A stretch of 64,000 bases of DNA from an uncultured Pseudomonadota bacterium (GTDB lineage: Bacteria > Pseudomonadota > Gammaproteobacteria > Burkholderiales > Rhodocyclaceae), in the NCBI GenBank assembly GCA_903951825.1, contig CAJBDJ010000005.1, positions 1 to 64,000 of the forward strand, written 5' to 3'. The notes under the pieces are model-generated. The model made no database searches. It saw only the letters and a program-made list of their open reading frames with translations, and was not told the origin of the DNA. Of the stretch, positions 19,482 to 24,114 are shown piece after piece. The position numbers were made by a program, and so were the translations under genes. Every line of letters starts with the position of its first letter. Position 1 is the stretch's first letter.

Positions 19482-19495
19482 TTGACCTGGATCAA
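19482..19495. promoter_or_regulatory. Fnr/Anr box between hemN and fnr
   Basis: TTGAC-CTGG-ATCAA matches the Fnr consensus TTGAT-N4-ATCAA at 9 of 10 defined positions. It lies in the divergent hemN-fnr gap, 14 bases before the fnr start and 136 bases before hemN. At that distance it could repress fnr (autoregulation) and activate hemN. Promoter elements could not be fixed. Confidence 0.75.
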
Positions 19496-19509
19496 ACCAG
19501 ACAAAATTG

Positions 19510-20256
19510 ATGATCTCAACTCAAATTGCCACCCATCCAATTTCCATGAACTCGGTCAAGCGGGCTTGCGGCAACTGCAATCTGCGCGAGCTTTGCCTGC
19601 CTTTTGGCCTCAGCAACGACGAACTCGAGCGTGTGGACGAAATGGTCACAACGCGACGCAAGATCAAACAGGGGGAATACCTCTATCGCGCCGGGTCTGC
19701 CTTTGAATCAATTTACGCGATCCGCAGCGGTTTCTTCAAAACCGACGTGCTTCTTGAAGACGGCCGCGATCAGGTGACCGGTTTTCAGATGGGTGGCGAA
19801 CTGCTCGGCCTGGACGGAATCAGCACCGAACTTCACACCTGCAACTCTGTTGCCCTTGAAAACAGTGAAGTTTGCATCATCCCTTTCTCGCGACTGGAAA
19901 CGCTTTCGCGCGAAATTCGCACCTTGCAGAATCATTTCCACAAAGTCATGAGTCGTGAAATTGTCCGCGACCACGGCGTCATGATGTTACTCGGGACGAT
20001 GCGCGCCGAAGAACGCCTGGCAGCCTTCCTGCTCAATCTATCACAGCGCTTCACTGCACGCGGCTATTCACACGCTGACTTTTACATGCGTATGACACGG
20101 GAAGAAATTGGCAGCTACCTGGGACTCAAACTTGAGACAGTGTCGCGCGCTTTTTCACGCCTTCAAGAAGCCGGGCACATCGCGGTTCAGCAAAAACATG
20201 TCCGCATCCTCAACATCGCCGGACTGAAAGCCTTGATGAACCGCCAGCCCGCTTGA
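19510..20256 (+). CDS. fnr: Fnr-type oxygen-responsive transcription regulator
   Basis: A 248-residue Crp/Fnr-family regulator. With the ATG at 19510 the cluster cysteines fall at 20, 23, 29 (RACGNCNLRELCLPFGL) and 122 (SEVCIIP), exactly the E. coli Fnr numbering, which fixes the start and implies an oxygen-labile 4Fe-4S cluster. The cyclic-nucleotide-like beta-roll spans about 30-140, the dimer helix about 140-170, and the helix-turn-helix has the Fnr recognition helix in GSYLGLKLETVSRAFSRLQEAG (E-x2-S-R). It controls the shift to anaerobic metabolism and likely acts on the box just upstream. An extra Cys 111 is present. Confidence 0.97.
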   Translation: MISTQIATHPISMNSVKRACGNCNLRELCLPFGLSNDELERVDEMVTTRRKIKQGEYLYRAGSAFESIYAIRSGFFKTDVLLEDGRDQVTGFQMGGELLGLDGISTELHTCNSVALENSEVCIIPFSRLETLSREIRTLQNHFHKVMSREIVRDHGVMMLLGTMRAEERLAAFLLNLSQRFTARGYSHADFYMRMTREEIGSYLGLKLETVSRAFSRLQEAGHIAVQQKHVRILNIAGLKALMNRQPA

Positions 20257-20312
20257 GGCTGCGCGGCCGGGCATCGACTCGAATCAGCGAATCAATACCC
20301 GGTACGGTGAAA

Positions 20313-21053
20313 TCAGTTTTTTGCTATGCCAATCTGTAAATCATCAAACCAGCTGATAAAACGCTGCACGTCGCCCCCCCGGTAAATCGCGCCGTGTTGC
20401 GGACAAAGCATGTCGATGTCCAATTGTGAAACCCGCTCGCACCAACGCCGCTTGGCTTCGGTTGAACCCATGTAGCGGCGGTGAAAGCCTTCAGCAAAAC
20501 GAATGTGTTTGTCGAAATCTTCGACAAACAGCCCATCTTGACCTGGCGGCAGCAGAGCGGCGCCGATATCTCCGGAAAAGAAAATTTTGGCCAGCTTGTC
20601 GTACACATTGAAATTGCCAGAGGAGTGCAAATAGTGGGCTGGAACCGCGCGCAAAGCGAGGCCGGCCAACGGAATATCCATTCCCTCGTCAGGAATCGAA
20701 ACAAAGGTTTCGGCGGTGCCGCCAAAATGCGGCAAAAAGCTGTTCCATAAGGCACTCACGTAACAGCGCATTTTTGGGTTGAATTCAAGCCACAGCGCCA
20801 GCGAGGAACAGATATCGGGATCCTGATGCGAGGCGAAGACGGCGCCGAGCTTGGAGGGATCGAACTCCGAGGACAGCGCCGAAAATACCGCCGGAAATAT
20901 CTCCGCTCCGCCCGGATCAAGGAGTATCCCTTCGCCACCGTGCGTCACCAGATATTCATTGGTATCAACCAAAAAATTGGGTTTCTCCGGATCGCGAATG
21001 ATGGCGACCCATTTGTGGTTGCCGTCCTGAAAAATAGTTTCTGTGATTTTCAT
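20313..21053 (-). CDS. ODP-type diiron metallo-beta-lactamase-fold protein (oxygen sensor candidate)
   Basis: A 246-residue cytosolic protein with the fold of the flavodiiron protein core but no flavodoxin or rubredoxin domain. The metal-ligand motif that reads HxExDH in flavodiiron proteins is here HQDPDI (76-81), the variant of ODP proteins (oxygen-binding diiron proteins). Other ligands are retained: His 140 (VPAHYLHSSGNF), Asp 162 (FSGDIG) and His 220 (CPQHGAIYRG). ODP of Treponema denticola binds Fe and O2 and tunes chemotaxis. The ATG at 21053 follows GAGGAGA and lies 9 bases after the stop of a minimal chemoreceptor gene, so the two form an operon. A hydrolase role is less likely. Confidence 0.85.
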   Translation of the reverse strand: MKITETIFQDGNHKWVAIIRDPEKPNFLVDTNEYLVTHGGEGILLDPGGAEIFPAVFSALSSEFDPSKLGAVFASHQDPDICSSLALWLEFNPKMRCYVSALWNSFLPHFGGTAETFVSIPDEGMDIPLAGLALRAVPAHYLHSSGNFNVYDKLAKIFFSGDIGAALLPPGQDGLFVEDFDKHIRFAEGFHRRYMGSTEAKRRWCERVSQLDIDMLCPQHGAIYRGGDVQRFISWFDDLQIGIAKN

Positions 21054-21062
21054 CTTTTCTCC

Positions 21063-21689
21063 TCAATGTCCGGTAAAGAACGGAGAGCGCCTGAGCGACT
21101 CCAGCGAACCACGTATTTCTTCGACGATCCCGTCAAACTCTCCTGAAACCTGAGCCAGCGGCAGTGCAAAGGATTGCCCGTAGGCCGCCTCAATTTTCGC
21201 CGACTTGGCTAAAACACCACCCAACTCAACCATCTGAAAGGCATCTTCGAGGGCTCGCTTAAGCTGACTGCGAAGCAGTGACAGCTTGCCGGCATGCATC
21301 TCGTTGCGGGCATCATGCTGCGCGAGAATTTCCGGCGCGGCAGATTGCGGGACAATTCTTGCGGCTTCGGCAAGCAGGCGGGTTAGGCGAATGTCTTGCA
21401 AAATAATGGAAACTTCGCCGACACAGGCATGAATCAGCTCGGTCAGAGACTCCATGCAGGTTCGCAAATCCTGGGAAAAAACGCGCAATTCGTTCGACAG
21501 GACGCCAAAACCCAGTGCCGCTGTTCCGGCACGCTTGGCGAGAAAAATGGCATTAAGCGCCATGATGTTGATCTTGAAAGAGACGGTGACTACCCGCTTG
21601 ATCTCCTCATTGATTCGCACAATTTGCAGAAGATCAACGCCAGCGCGCGGCGCCTTGCGCTTTACGGAGGTCATTGCGCTCGTTGTCAT
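21063..21689 (-). CDS. minimal soluble chemoreceptor-like protein, ODP partner
   Basis: A 208-residue, almost entirely helical protein without membrane segments. Residues 24-75 resemble the methyl-accepting chemotaxis hairpin tip: IVRINEEIKRVV...INIMALNAIFLAKRAG, then GFGVLSNELRVFS. The tip keeps the M/LALNA core and the FxVLxxELR-like return helix but differs from the canonical [31 protein letters not shown] at several CheA/CheW contact positions. Residues 80-208 form a further coiled coil. It has no sensor domain, so input probably comes from the ODP protein encoded 9 bases downstream. The ATG at 21689 follows AAGGGG; phaC ends 61 bases upstream. Confidence 0.75.
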   Translation of the reverse strand: MTTSAMTSVKRKAPRAGVDLLQIVRINEEIKRVVTVSFKINIMALNAIFLAKRAGTAALGFGVLSNELRVFSQDLRTCMESLTELIHACVGEVSIILQDIRLTRLLAEAARIVPQSAAPEILAQHDARNEMHAGKLSLLRSQLKRALEDAFQMVELGGVLAKSAKIEAAYGQSFALPLAQVSGEFDGIVEEIRGSLESLRRSPFFTGH

Positions 21690-21750
21690 GTTAGCCCCTT
21701 GTTATGCGGATAGTCTCTAATGTACCAATTCGCCGAGATGACCGGAAGGT

Positions 21751-23499
21751 CTATTTCTCATGCACATAGGTTCCCGGGGCGTCGGCAAGCGCCGGGAACT
21801 GGCGGTTGGCCGCCGGATAGGCACTGACCAGTTCGCCGCAATTCCCGCTCAGCCAAGCAGTCCAGTCGTCCCACCAGGTTCCGGTATGTTGTTCGGCGCG
21901 TCCCAACCAGTGTTCCCAATGTTCGTTATGCTCGGGAACGGCGACCCGATAGGAACGCTTGGGCGGCTTCGCCGGTGGATTGACGATGCCGAGGATATGC
22001 CCGGAGGATGACAAGACAAAACGTACCGGTGTCTTGACATTGACGTATTTATGAATGCGATAGCACTGGCGCCAGGGGGCAATATGATCATCTTCGGCGG
22101 TCACCGCGTAAAGCGGCTGGACGATGCGATCGAGATCGATCGGCTCGCCGGCAATCGTCAACTTGTCGTGCTTGATCAGATTGTTCTGCAAATACATCTG
22201 ATGCAAGTAATAGGAATGCATGGCGCGCGGCATCCGCGTGGCGTCGACATTCCAGAACAGCACATCAAATGGCGGCAGTTCCTCGCCCATCAAATAGCTG
22301 CGCACGTAGTAATGCCAGACCAGACTGTTGGCGCGCAGCAGACGAAACGAGGTAGCCATTTCACTACCGTCGAGATAGCCCTTTTTGGCCATGGTTTCGT
22401 CAAGCGCATTGACACAATCTTCATCGAGAAAGACGTCGATATCCCCCGGCTCGGAAAAATCGGTCAGGGTGGTGAAGAGCGTCCAGTGCGCGACCGGTAC
22501 CTTGTCGGCGGCAAAATGCCGGTTGGCCCAGGCCATGTAGGTTGAAACCAGCGTGCCGCCGATGCAGTAACCGACGAGATGCACCTTGGGTACTTTGCAA
22601 AACTCGCTGACGACGTTGATCACGGCATTGACGCCTTCGAGCAGGTAATCGTCGAAACGGATCTCGGCAAGTTCCGGACCAGGGTTTTTCCAGCTGGTGA
22701 TGAACACCGAAAAACCCTGATCAGTCAGATGCTTGACCATGCTTTTGCGCGCTGTCAGATCGAGAATGTAAAACTTGTTGATCCAGGGCGTGATGATGAC
22801 TATCGGCGTTGCACGCACTTTTTCAGTAATTGGCGTGTAATGAATCAACTCGACCAGACGATTGCGGAATACCACCTTGCCGGGCGTCGTGGCGAGATCC
22901 TTGCCAACGCTGAAGGCATCCGGCTCAACCATCTGAATGGTTTTGGCTTTCAGATCGCGCATGAAATTGCGCATACCTTGCGCGACGCTTTCGCCACGGG
23001 TCGCCACAAAACGCTCCATGGCCACGGGGTTAAGCCAGAAGAAATTATTCGGGGCGACCATGTTGAGCCATTCACGCGACCAGAACGCAGCCCGCCGGCG
23101 CTCCTTTTCAGACAAACCCGGCGTTTCGAAAGCCATGTCCTGCAAGCGGTGTGTCAGTGCCAGATACCACTCTTTGGTGATGTCCCAGCTCGCCGATTCG
23201 GTCCAGACCGGATCGGTAAAGCGGGCATCGTCGTGATTCGGCTGCACGATATCTTCTGACGGAATACCCATGGCACGCCGCATGACGTGCGACTGCAAGG
23301 CGATCAGGTCGCCGGAAAGCGCACTGGCGGCGCGCAACAGTTCCTGCGGATGGGACAGCCAGGCCATTTGTGCATTGAGCAGCGAAGTGGTCACGCCAAA
23401 AGGATCCAGCTTCTTGCTTAAGGCCGCGCCGACAGATTCCAGCGGGGTCAAGGCACCGATATCGATGCTTTTGTGGGCGATGGAAGAACTGTTCGGCAT
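21751..23499 (-). CDS. phaC: class I poly(3-hydroxyalkanoate) synthase
   Basis: A 582-residue enzyme that polymerises (R)-3-hydroxyacyl-CoA into PHA granules. The lipase-like box GYCIGG holds the nucleophile Cys, the catalytic Asp is in YAVTAEDDHIAPW and the His in LSSSGHILGIVNPP. The N-terminal PhaC domain spans about 100-270 (NPNNFFWLNPVAMERF-like APNNFFWLNP; KVVFRNRLVELIHYTP) and the sequence W-x-x-W near the C terminus (HWEHWLG) is typical. Length fits class I, which works without PhaE or PhaR. The ATG at 23499 follows CAGGAGC. No phaA, phaB or phasin is nearby. Confidence 0.96.
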   Translation of the reverse strand: MPNSSSIAHKSIDIGALTPLESVGAALSKKLDPFGVTTSLLNAQMAWLSHPQELLRAASALSGDLIALQSHVMRRAMGIPSEDIVQPNHDDARFTDPVWTESASWDITKEWYLALTHRLQDMAFETPGLSEKERRRAAFWSREWLNMVAPNNFFWLNPVAMERFVATRGESVAQGMRNFMRDLKAKTIQMVEPDAFSVGKDLATTPGKVVFRNRLVELIHYTPITEKVRATPIVIITPWINKFYILDLTARKSMVKHLTDQGFSVFITSWKNPGPELAEIRFDDYLLEGVNAVINVVSEFCKVPKVHLVGYCIGGTLVSTYMAWANRHFAADKVPVAHWTLFTTLTDFSEPGDIDVFLDEDCVNALDETMAKKGYLDGSEMATSFRLLRANSLVWHYYVRSYLMGEELPPFDVLFWNVDATRMPRAMHSYYLHQMYLQNNLIKHDKLTIAGEPIDLDRIVQPLYAVTAEDDHIAPWRQCYRIHKYVNVKTPVRFVLSSSGHILGIVNPPAKPPKRSYRVAVPEHNEHWEHWLGRAEQHTGTWWDDWTAWLSGNCGELVSAYPAANRQFPALADAPGTYVHEK

Positions 23500-23670
23500 G
23501 GCATTTTGCTCCTGAAAATCAGAGCTTACTTATAACACATTCATTTCTCCCAACTTGAGGGGAAATTACCGGCTGACGGGCCATTCAGCGCTTTTCCCCA
23601 AGACCCAGTTGGCGTAGCATAAGGCAGTTGAAGGCCTAATTTTCGGCACGCACCCTTGAGGAGTAAAGCC

Positions 23671-24114
23671 ATGTTCAAACATATTCTGGTACCTACCGAC
23701 GGCTCCGAGTTATCGCGCGCCACGGCTAGCCGTGCCATTTCTTTCGCCAAGGAAGCCGGGGCTCGCATCACGATCTTTTTTGCCAAGCCGGAATACCCGA
23801 TTTCCTACTTCGGCGAAGGCGCTCTGATCGACCCGACAACGCCCGAAAAGTTTGCCGAACTCGCCGATCAGCAAGCCGCCGAATATCTCGGCAAGATTGA
23901 GCAGCAGTGCATTGCAGCGGGAGTGGAGTGCAAATCATTGGCCGTCACCAGCGACATCCCGTATGAAGCAATTGTCGAAGCCGCCGAGCAATCAGGCTGC
24001 GATCTGATTTTTATGGCATCGCACGGCCGACGAGGTTTTAGCGGCTTTTTGTTAGGTAGCGAGACAAACAAGGTTCTCACGCACTCCAAAGTGCCGGTGC
24101 TGGTTTATCGGTGA
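23671..24114 (+). CDS. universal stress protein UspA family
   Basis: A 147-residue UspA-fold protein starting MFKHILVPTDGSELSRATASRAI and ending with the ATP-binding signature FMASHGRRGFSGFLLGSETNKVLTHSKVPVLVY (G-x2-G-x9-G-S). The middle part includes a YPISYFGEGALIDPTTPEKF insertion often seen in betaproteobacterial members. The ATG at 23671 follows GAGGAG. It is divergent from phaC, sharing a 171-base gap in which I see no Fnr box. Expected cytosolic, stress or anaerobiosis related; no direct target known. Confidence 0.93.
   Translation: MFKHILVPTDGSELSRATASRAISFAKEAGARITIFFAKPEYPISYFGEGALIDPTTPEKFAELADQQAAEYLGKIEQQCIAAGVECKSLAVTSDIPYEAIVEAAEQSGCDLIFMASHGRRGFSGFLLGSETNKVLTHSKVPVLVYR

Follow-up and report, generated by a model that had tools for sequence, protein, structure and literature searches.

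Background

The closest described counterpart of the gene pair reported here is that of Treponema denticola, in which the oxygen-binding diiron protein (ODP) TDE2498 is an oxygen sensor coupled to the sensor-less receptor TDE2496, which can modulate CheA (PMC7666581; this and the other papers are cited from parts of their text). The coupling is genetic, TDE2496 being a receptor homologue without membrane and sensing modules, and the part of that report cited here leaves the location of ODP relative to the receptor array open. ODPs are stated in a review to contact their receptors directly (PMC6978683), are described as sharing operons with receptor genes, in either of two orders (PMC7319448), and are, in the cited part of a further paper, merely named among oxygen sensors (PMC9665402). 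Single-chain receptors form the second point of reference: an engineered single-chain Tsr comes close to native dimers in its signalling, and natural single-chain soluble receptors exist in Rhodospirillum centenum and other organisms (PMC4692393). In the present work a pair of adjacent genes was analysed in a 64,000-nucleotide stretch of DNA from an uncultured bacterium of the Rhodocyclaceae (contig CAJBDJ010000005.1, hereafter the window), of which one encodes an ODP-family protein and the other a small sensor-less receptor, here called the mini-receptor.

The locus resembles the Treponema system in having an ODP gene coupled to that of a receptor lacking membrane and sensing modules, TDE2496 being likened to the mini-receptor by description; the window receptor is of about 200 residues and has a predicted single-chain fold. 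With the natural single-chain receptors and the engineered Tsr it would share solubility and two signalling units per chain (PMC4692393). The natural examples, also compared by description, are single-chain signalling domains of methyl-accepting chemotaxis proteins similar to Tar constructs (PMC4692393), and unlike these as described the window receptor is short, combines one recognisable with one diverged half and has an ODP partner. The analysis makes it likely that the pair is a two-protein cytoplasmic chemotaxis sensor for oxygen, and perhaps also for Fe(II), which would act on CheA through the mini-receptor as a single-chain pseudo-dimer.

Identity of the two proteins

Open reading frames (ORFs) of 246 and 208 residues were found where the original prediction had placed them, on the same minus strand and 9 bases apart. 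The 246-residue protein (20313..21053) is an ODP as judged from its sequence, which agrees with the earlier proposal: PF19583 matched it with 249.1 bits against a cut-off of 27.2, and Lactamase_B reached 68.3 bits, far below this score. The nearest solved structures were 6qrq (245.8 bits) and 6qnm (221.5 bits), both diiron proteins that bind oxygen, and the best flavodiiron protein was 4dik with only 36 bits; flavodiiron proteins (4dik, 1vme, 1e5d) scored 15-46 bits compared to 221-283 bits for solved ODPs. The diiron ligand positions nevertheless align between the two groups, with HxD in place of the flavodiiron HxE, and those of the window protein are His76, Asp78, Asp80, His143, Asp162 and His220. 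The first three belong to the HQDPD motif (residues 76-80; 20814..20828, minus strand), placed by comparison with the solved ODPs and with flavodiiron proteins, and the whole ligand set matches that of 6qrq and 6qnm. These six residues and His140 were invariant in all 81 alignment rows. The residues named earlier (HQDPDI, His140, Asp162 and His220) are thus all present, and of the claim that His140 is a retained ligand the conservation holds, but the histidine equivalent to the flavodiiron ligand is His143.

The possibility that the ODP-like protein is an enzyme, an oxygen or NO reductase or a hydrolase with the helical protein merely as its scaffold, was considered on the same evidence. The flavodiiron ligand set and a weak NCBIfam match to flavorubredoxin (19.6 bits) speak for such a role, but the dominance of PF19583 over Lactamase_B, the oxygen-binding ODPs as nearest solved relatives, the absence of a flavodoxin domain within the 246 residues and the occurrence of the pair in chemotaxis (che) operons of relatives render it scarcely credible.

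The 208-residue mini-receptor (21063..21689, minus strand) is certainly receptor-derived in its N-terminal half. This half matched 27 canonical receptor tips, assembled by similarity to a typical tip, with hhalign P = 1.2e-18 and 56 longer receptor hairpins with P = 3.6e-18. No strong transmembrane stretch was found in the protein; the highest mean hydropathy over 19 residues was 1.8 compared to 2.85 for a membrane receptor, and this segment starts at residue 33 and thus lies on the tip. Together with the receptor homology this supports the earlier description of a membrane-free receptor without a sensor. The methylation consensus was absent from the window protein and gave incidental matches in 4 of 80 homologues.

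The top phmmer match in the PDB was a soluble receptor of similar length, 3g67/3g6b (213 residues, E 1.4e-5), which we take to be Tm14 of Thermotoga maritima, presumably with an ODP gene nearby. The two differ in layout, since residues 8-98 of the mini-receptor align to residues 61-151 of this 213-residue protein, whose tip lies near mid-chain, and its aligned tip (IEAARAGEA) retains both glutamates that are missing from the first tip of the mini-receptor.

Fold and tips of the mini-receptor

The window mini-receptor and its Gallionella orthologue were modelled with AlphaFold2, each as one chain. Both models (pLDDT 90.4 and 91.1; pTM 0.81) gave an antiparallel four-helix bundle formed by a single chain, and in fold comparison both superposed on compact single-chain four-helix bundles. 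The helices of the window protein are predicted at about residues 15-56, 57-112, 118-169 and 172-200, with both U-turns at the same end of the bundle. The mini-receptor is therefore predicted to be a single-chain four-helix bundle and not the one hairpin of the original prediction. No chemoreceptor chain was present among the 50 matches listed for either model, which says little because a single receptor chain is half a bundle.

The first tip (tip 1) comprises residues 41-69, NIMALNAIFLAKRAGTAALGFGVLSNELR (21483..21569, minus strand), and was defined by receptor alignments and by column counts over 81 rows; its positions are given in what we take to be Tsr numbering. The equivalents of Asn376, Asn381, Ala382, Arg388, Gly390, Phe396, Val398 and Glu402 were each kept in at least 78 of the 81 rows, Arg388 being Arg in 78. 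The Glu385 position was occupied by Leu (68 rows), Ile (5), Val (5) or Thr (2), with one gap and no Glu among 80 residues, so that the altered tip noticed earlier was confirmed. At the Glu391 position Glu occurred in all eight members that lie in che operons and in no other row. In the window protein the equivalents of Glu385, Arg388 and Glu391 are Leu50, Arg53 and Thr56, and tip 1 does not retain the Glu385-Arg388-Glu391 set of canonical tips. The receptors encoded in the same genome kept both Glu385 and Glu391 in all 13 that were readable, the pattern having missed or misplaced the tip in 2 of 15. Two receptor sets of 57 and 56 tips were gathered with a pattern that demands Glu385, so they give no evidence for its conservation.

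A second tip-like motif was recognised from column counts and the models at residues 157-185, GGVLAKSAKIEAAYGQSFALPLAQVSGEF (21135..21221, minus strand), around the predicted second U-turn Tyr170-Gly171. Glu167 was present in 80 of 81 rows, the remaining row being a gap; Tyr170 occupied 79 rows at the site where Arg would be expected, and this Arg is not kept. The best match of the second half to receptors was at the tip (hhalign P 0.0014-0.0033), with an HH probability of only 10-18%. Its score was reached by 0 of 400 column shuffles and by 4 of 400 heptad-preserving shuffles, and direct comparison of the C-terminal with the N-terminal half gave no similarity (hhalign P 0.081). Homology of the second half to a receptor tip, that is a duplication, is graded as suggestive because the match is weak and heptad-preserving shuffles reach an equal score. 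Circular permutation, with the C-terminal half as the receptor N-arm, is the less likely reading: this was the next-best placement (hhalign P 0.051, and a second domain of 4.7 bits against 1qu7) and was weaker than the tip.

The more distant partners (L194, L199, L212, L216 and G039) showed both tip features in degenerate form, the second-motif Glu of G039 being replaced by Asn. In a separate count over 92 rows the Glu385 pattern did not fit 5 rows, and the second-motif Glu was unlocated in 5 others (three without a match, one Asn, one Gln); the 81-row column count was used instead. Alignments A4 and A5 held the window protein with 55 of the 80 fetched mini-receptors and with 36, respectively. 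The over-long ORF of L164 was excluded from the half profiles, and the ORF of L116 is short (173 residues).

Distribution of the pair and its occurrence in che operons

The mini-receptor was searched in 41 genomes of relatives and was present in 18, namely the genome of the window, 14 others of the same genus and three of other families. In 18 of 18 the mini-receptor gene was followed by an ODP gene in the same orientation, the two being separated by -4 to 52 bases. A contig scan with the ODP alignment A3 gave at least 532 relatives, of which the best 80 were kept, hence the nearest ODPs only, and a mini-receptor lay immediately upstream of ODP in all 80 loci. The adjacency is not by chance, and the pairing in an operon that had been proposed is borne out. 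Named records with the pair, many of them metagenome-assembled genomes (MAGs), include Dechloromonas, Azonexus, Azovibrio, Zoogloea, Undibacterium, Gallionella and Methylobacter. Among these the window ODP groups with Azonexus and Dechloromonas, its nearest relative being 88% identical (L109). For L072 the gene caller returned no ODP. In a Methylobacter MAG (L186:3431-5375) a single ODP is preceded by tandem mini-receptors of 48 and 123 bits, and a receptor gene and cheW lie in the vicinity.

A sample of 369 genomes of the class gave four clear mini-receptors, including that of the window, with profile A1 at E 1e-12; the weakest scored 136.7 bits and the next match, an ordinary receptor, 57.8. 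At most eight candidates were scored per genome, so that more distant partners were missed. PF19583 exceeded its cut-off in 155 of the 369 genomes, and its low-scoring matches probably include flavodiiron and other metallo-beta-lactamase proteins. Among the best 30 ODP loci of the class, the 13 above 300 bits (A3) all had an upstream partner of about 170-250 residues, matching the mini-receptor profile at 14 to 292 bits, where the 14.3-bit match of L193 was assessed by eye. No such neighbour was present at the other 17. The receptor neighbour is a feature of one ODP group and not of all.

The claim that the circuit leads to CheA finds its genomic counterpart in che operons of relatives that hold the pair, and such neighbourhoods suggest that swimming is guided by oxygen through the pair. 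This was seen in 8 of the 80 nearest loci, the fullest order being cheY-STAS-cheA-receptor-cheW-mini-ODP-cheR-cheD-cheB. The pair also lies in a che operon in G038 and G377 and, with different gene orders, in G267 and G358, all four of which may overlap the 80 loci. The che genes were identified by reading the sequences and by phmmer comparison with references that had themselves been assigned by eye. PF01584 is the basis for the CheW domains in the 41 relatives and for both CheA and CheW in G038. The eight che-operon ODPs formed one side of a tree branch with support 79, by a quick method that leaves deep forks unresolved. Within the genus, 15 of the 20 genomes in which CheW matched more than twice carried the pair, compared to 0 of 5 with two matches. 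The genome of the window has a full che cluster, its genes being named by eye.

Proposed signalling and alternatives

By analogy with the Treponema ODP and the single-chain Tsr, ODP would read O2 and act through the mini-receptor on CheA. The window ODP would bind O2 at its diiron site and pass its state on by contact with the mini-receptor, whose four helices would imitate in one chain the two-hairpin bundle of an ordinary receptor. Docking at the CheA-CheW baseplate would be through tip 1, which keeps most of the surface for CheA, CheW and trimer contacts, half 2 having diverged, and oxy-ODP would raise or lower CheA activity. The mini-receptor may join or cap arrays of other receptors rather than form homotrimers. 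As a more tentative extension, the mini-receptors may be a natural single-chain receptor family paired with one proteobacterial ODP group, in which the two halves of the pseudo-dimer divide the labour of the tip. Half 1 keeps Asn381, Arg388, Phe396 and Val398 but carries a hydrophobic residue (rarely Thr) in place of Glu385, and half 2 would keep Glu at the 385-equivalent but carry Tyr at 388.

Several results weigh against the proposed oxygen relay. The receptor family PF00015 matched residues 26-100 with 29.1 bits, under its cut-off of 34.6. Glu385, present in 27 of 27 canonical tips, is lost. The Glu385-equivalent residue locks to R388 of the neighbouring dimer in an archaeal receptor model (PMC8144572, cited from part of the text). 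Its loss suggests that ordinary trimers of the mini-receptor may not form. In the window model the DSSP assignment was one continuous helix over residues 15-112, unbroken at tip 1, the break being seen in the Gallionella model only; the two models share most alignment rows and are overlapping rather than independent. The window pair lies outside any che operon, five genomes of the genus with more than two CheW matches have no pair, and several of the counted genomes are only 70-86% complete.

Part of the same evidence would fit a homodimeric mini-receptor, with swapped halves or side-by-side chains, which joins trimers of dimers in the way of other cytoplasmic receptors that have no sensor. 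The receptor origin of half 1 is clear, the unbroken helix at tip 1 and the modelling of one chain only leave room for it, and strand swapping is seen in the engineered single-chain Tsr (PMC4692393). A simple hairpin would have arms of very different length because tip 1 falls at about residues 53-60 in a chain of 208; the two models each superpose on compact bundles made by one chain, and the E385 equivalent is gone in 80 of 80 rows with a residue. Such a homodimer is accordingly rated as rather unlikely.

The pseudo-dimer proposal bears on two questions. A 208-residue single-chain partner would offer a very small handle on the relay from ODP to the array. Tip residues occupy two structural environments within the receptor trimer, which conventional mutations cannot separate (PMC4692393), and a natural pseudo-dimer with two diverged halves would make this question testable. 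If the two halves do divide the labour of the tip, their natural divergence would reveal the residues required on the inward trimer face and those required on the outward one, and the pair would give a minimal ODP-to-CheA relay. For the freshwater bacteria that carry the pair (Azonexus, Dechloromonas, Gallionella and relatives), the proposal would further supply an input to aerotaxis that has probably not been studied.

More is known of such pairs than had been thought. ODP-receptor operons are in print (PMC7319448, in the part cited) and PF19583 is frequent in the class as counted above. No description of an ODP partner of about 200 residues was found among the literature matches listed, in a search that lay largely outside subscription journals and the primary ODP paper. 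Receptors paired with ODPs are known already, as are natural single-chain receptors, and by its sequence and predicted fold the single-chain partner of about 200 residues would be a new variant.

Flanking genes

The upstream neighbour is phaC, encoding polyhydroxybutyrate (PHB) synthase (21751..23499, minus strand; PF07167), and was judged to be outside the function. Of the 76 loci with enough upstream sequence, 42 had a phaC gene within 250 bp ahead of the mini-receptor, and in eight (L122, L133-L135, L137, L139, L141 and L143) its stop is overlapped by 4 bases by the mini-receptor start, which implies that the two would be translationally coupled. On this basis the Azonexus/Dechloromonas pair could be decoupled from CheA and tie the redox state to PHB storage, and the confinement of the Glu391-equivalent Glu to the eight che-operon members points the same way. 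This reading lost weight because phaC is also kept where the pair is absent: an orthologue of at least 72% identity is retained in 8 of 10 pair-less genomes of the genus, including all five with only two CheW matches. The Asn381, Arg388, Phe396, Val398 and Glu402 equivalents are also retained in the detached group, and a storage role is considered very unlikely. Since the pair follows CheW-rich genomes, the phaC adjacency looks like local or lineage synteny, with the pair tracking chemotaxis genes in the genus, and the tie to redox or storage state that had been read from phaC and Fnr was not upheld.

A Crp/Fnr-family regulator (19507..20256, plus strand; PF13545, PF00027) is the convergent neighbour on the other side. 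A perfect FNR-box match at 19482-19495 lies just upstream of this gene and not of the pair, and with one mismatch allowed the pattern gave 17 matches in the window compared to 6.25 expected. Over 20000-23700 a consensus scan gave a single promoter-like site where 1.9 were expected, and this site does not precede the pair. Control by FNR was rejected for the pair, the box being upstream of fnr itself. A sigma-28-like promoter before the mini-receptor was likewise discarded: matches that look like chance occurred in 3 of 39 upstream regions, and that of the window gave none. The string TG(G/A)TACATT was noticed by eye as common to many mini-receptor upstream regions.

Other ODP genes

A second ODP paralogue of 37-43% identity is present in L069, L070 and L071 (G021, G016 and G019) and in L078 (G020), and occurs also in chemotaxis-poor genomes. 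In the first three it adjoins a PilB/GspE-like ATPase and is near a small DUF1841-like protein (by eye), and in L078 only the latter of these two neighbours was called. ODP paralogues of L065 and L068 (G039 and G024) stand beside a roadblock/LC7-like neighbour as judged by eye, most clearly in L068, and the ODP of L066 adjoins a histidine kinase. ODP domains were further seen in long frames of 1730 (G242:C1:112863-113453), 701 (G239:C141:17996-18571), 633 (G227:C225:2821-3411), 616 (G124:C6:185016-185588) and 608 residues (G248:C273:288-860), and these five are possible domain fusions or frames merely open upstream.
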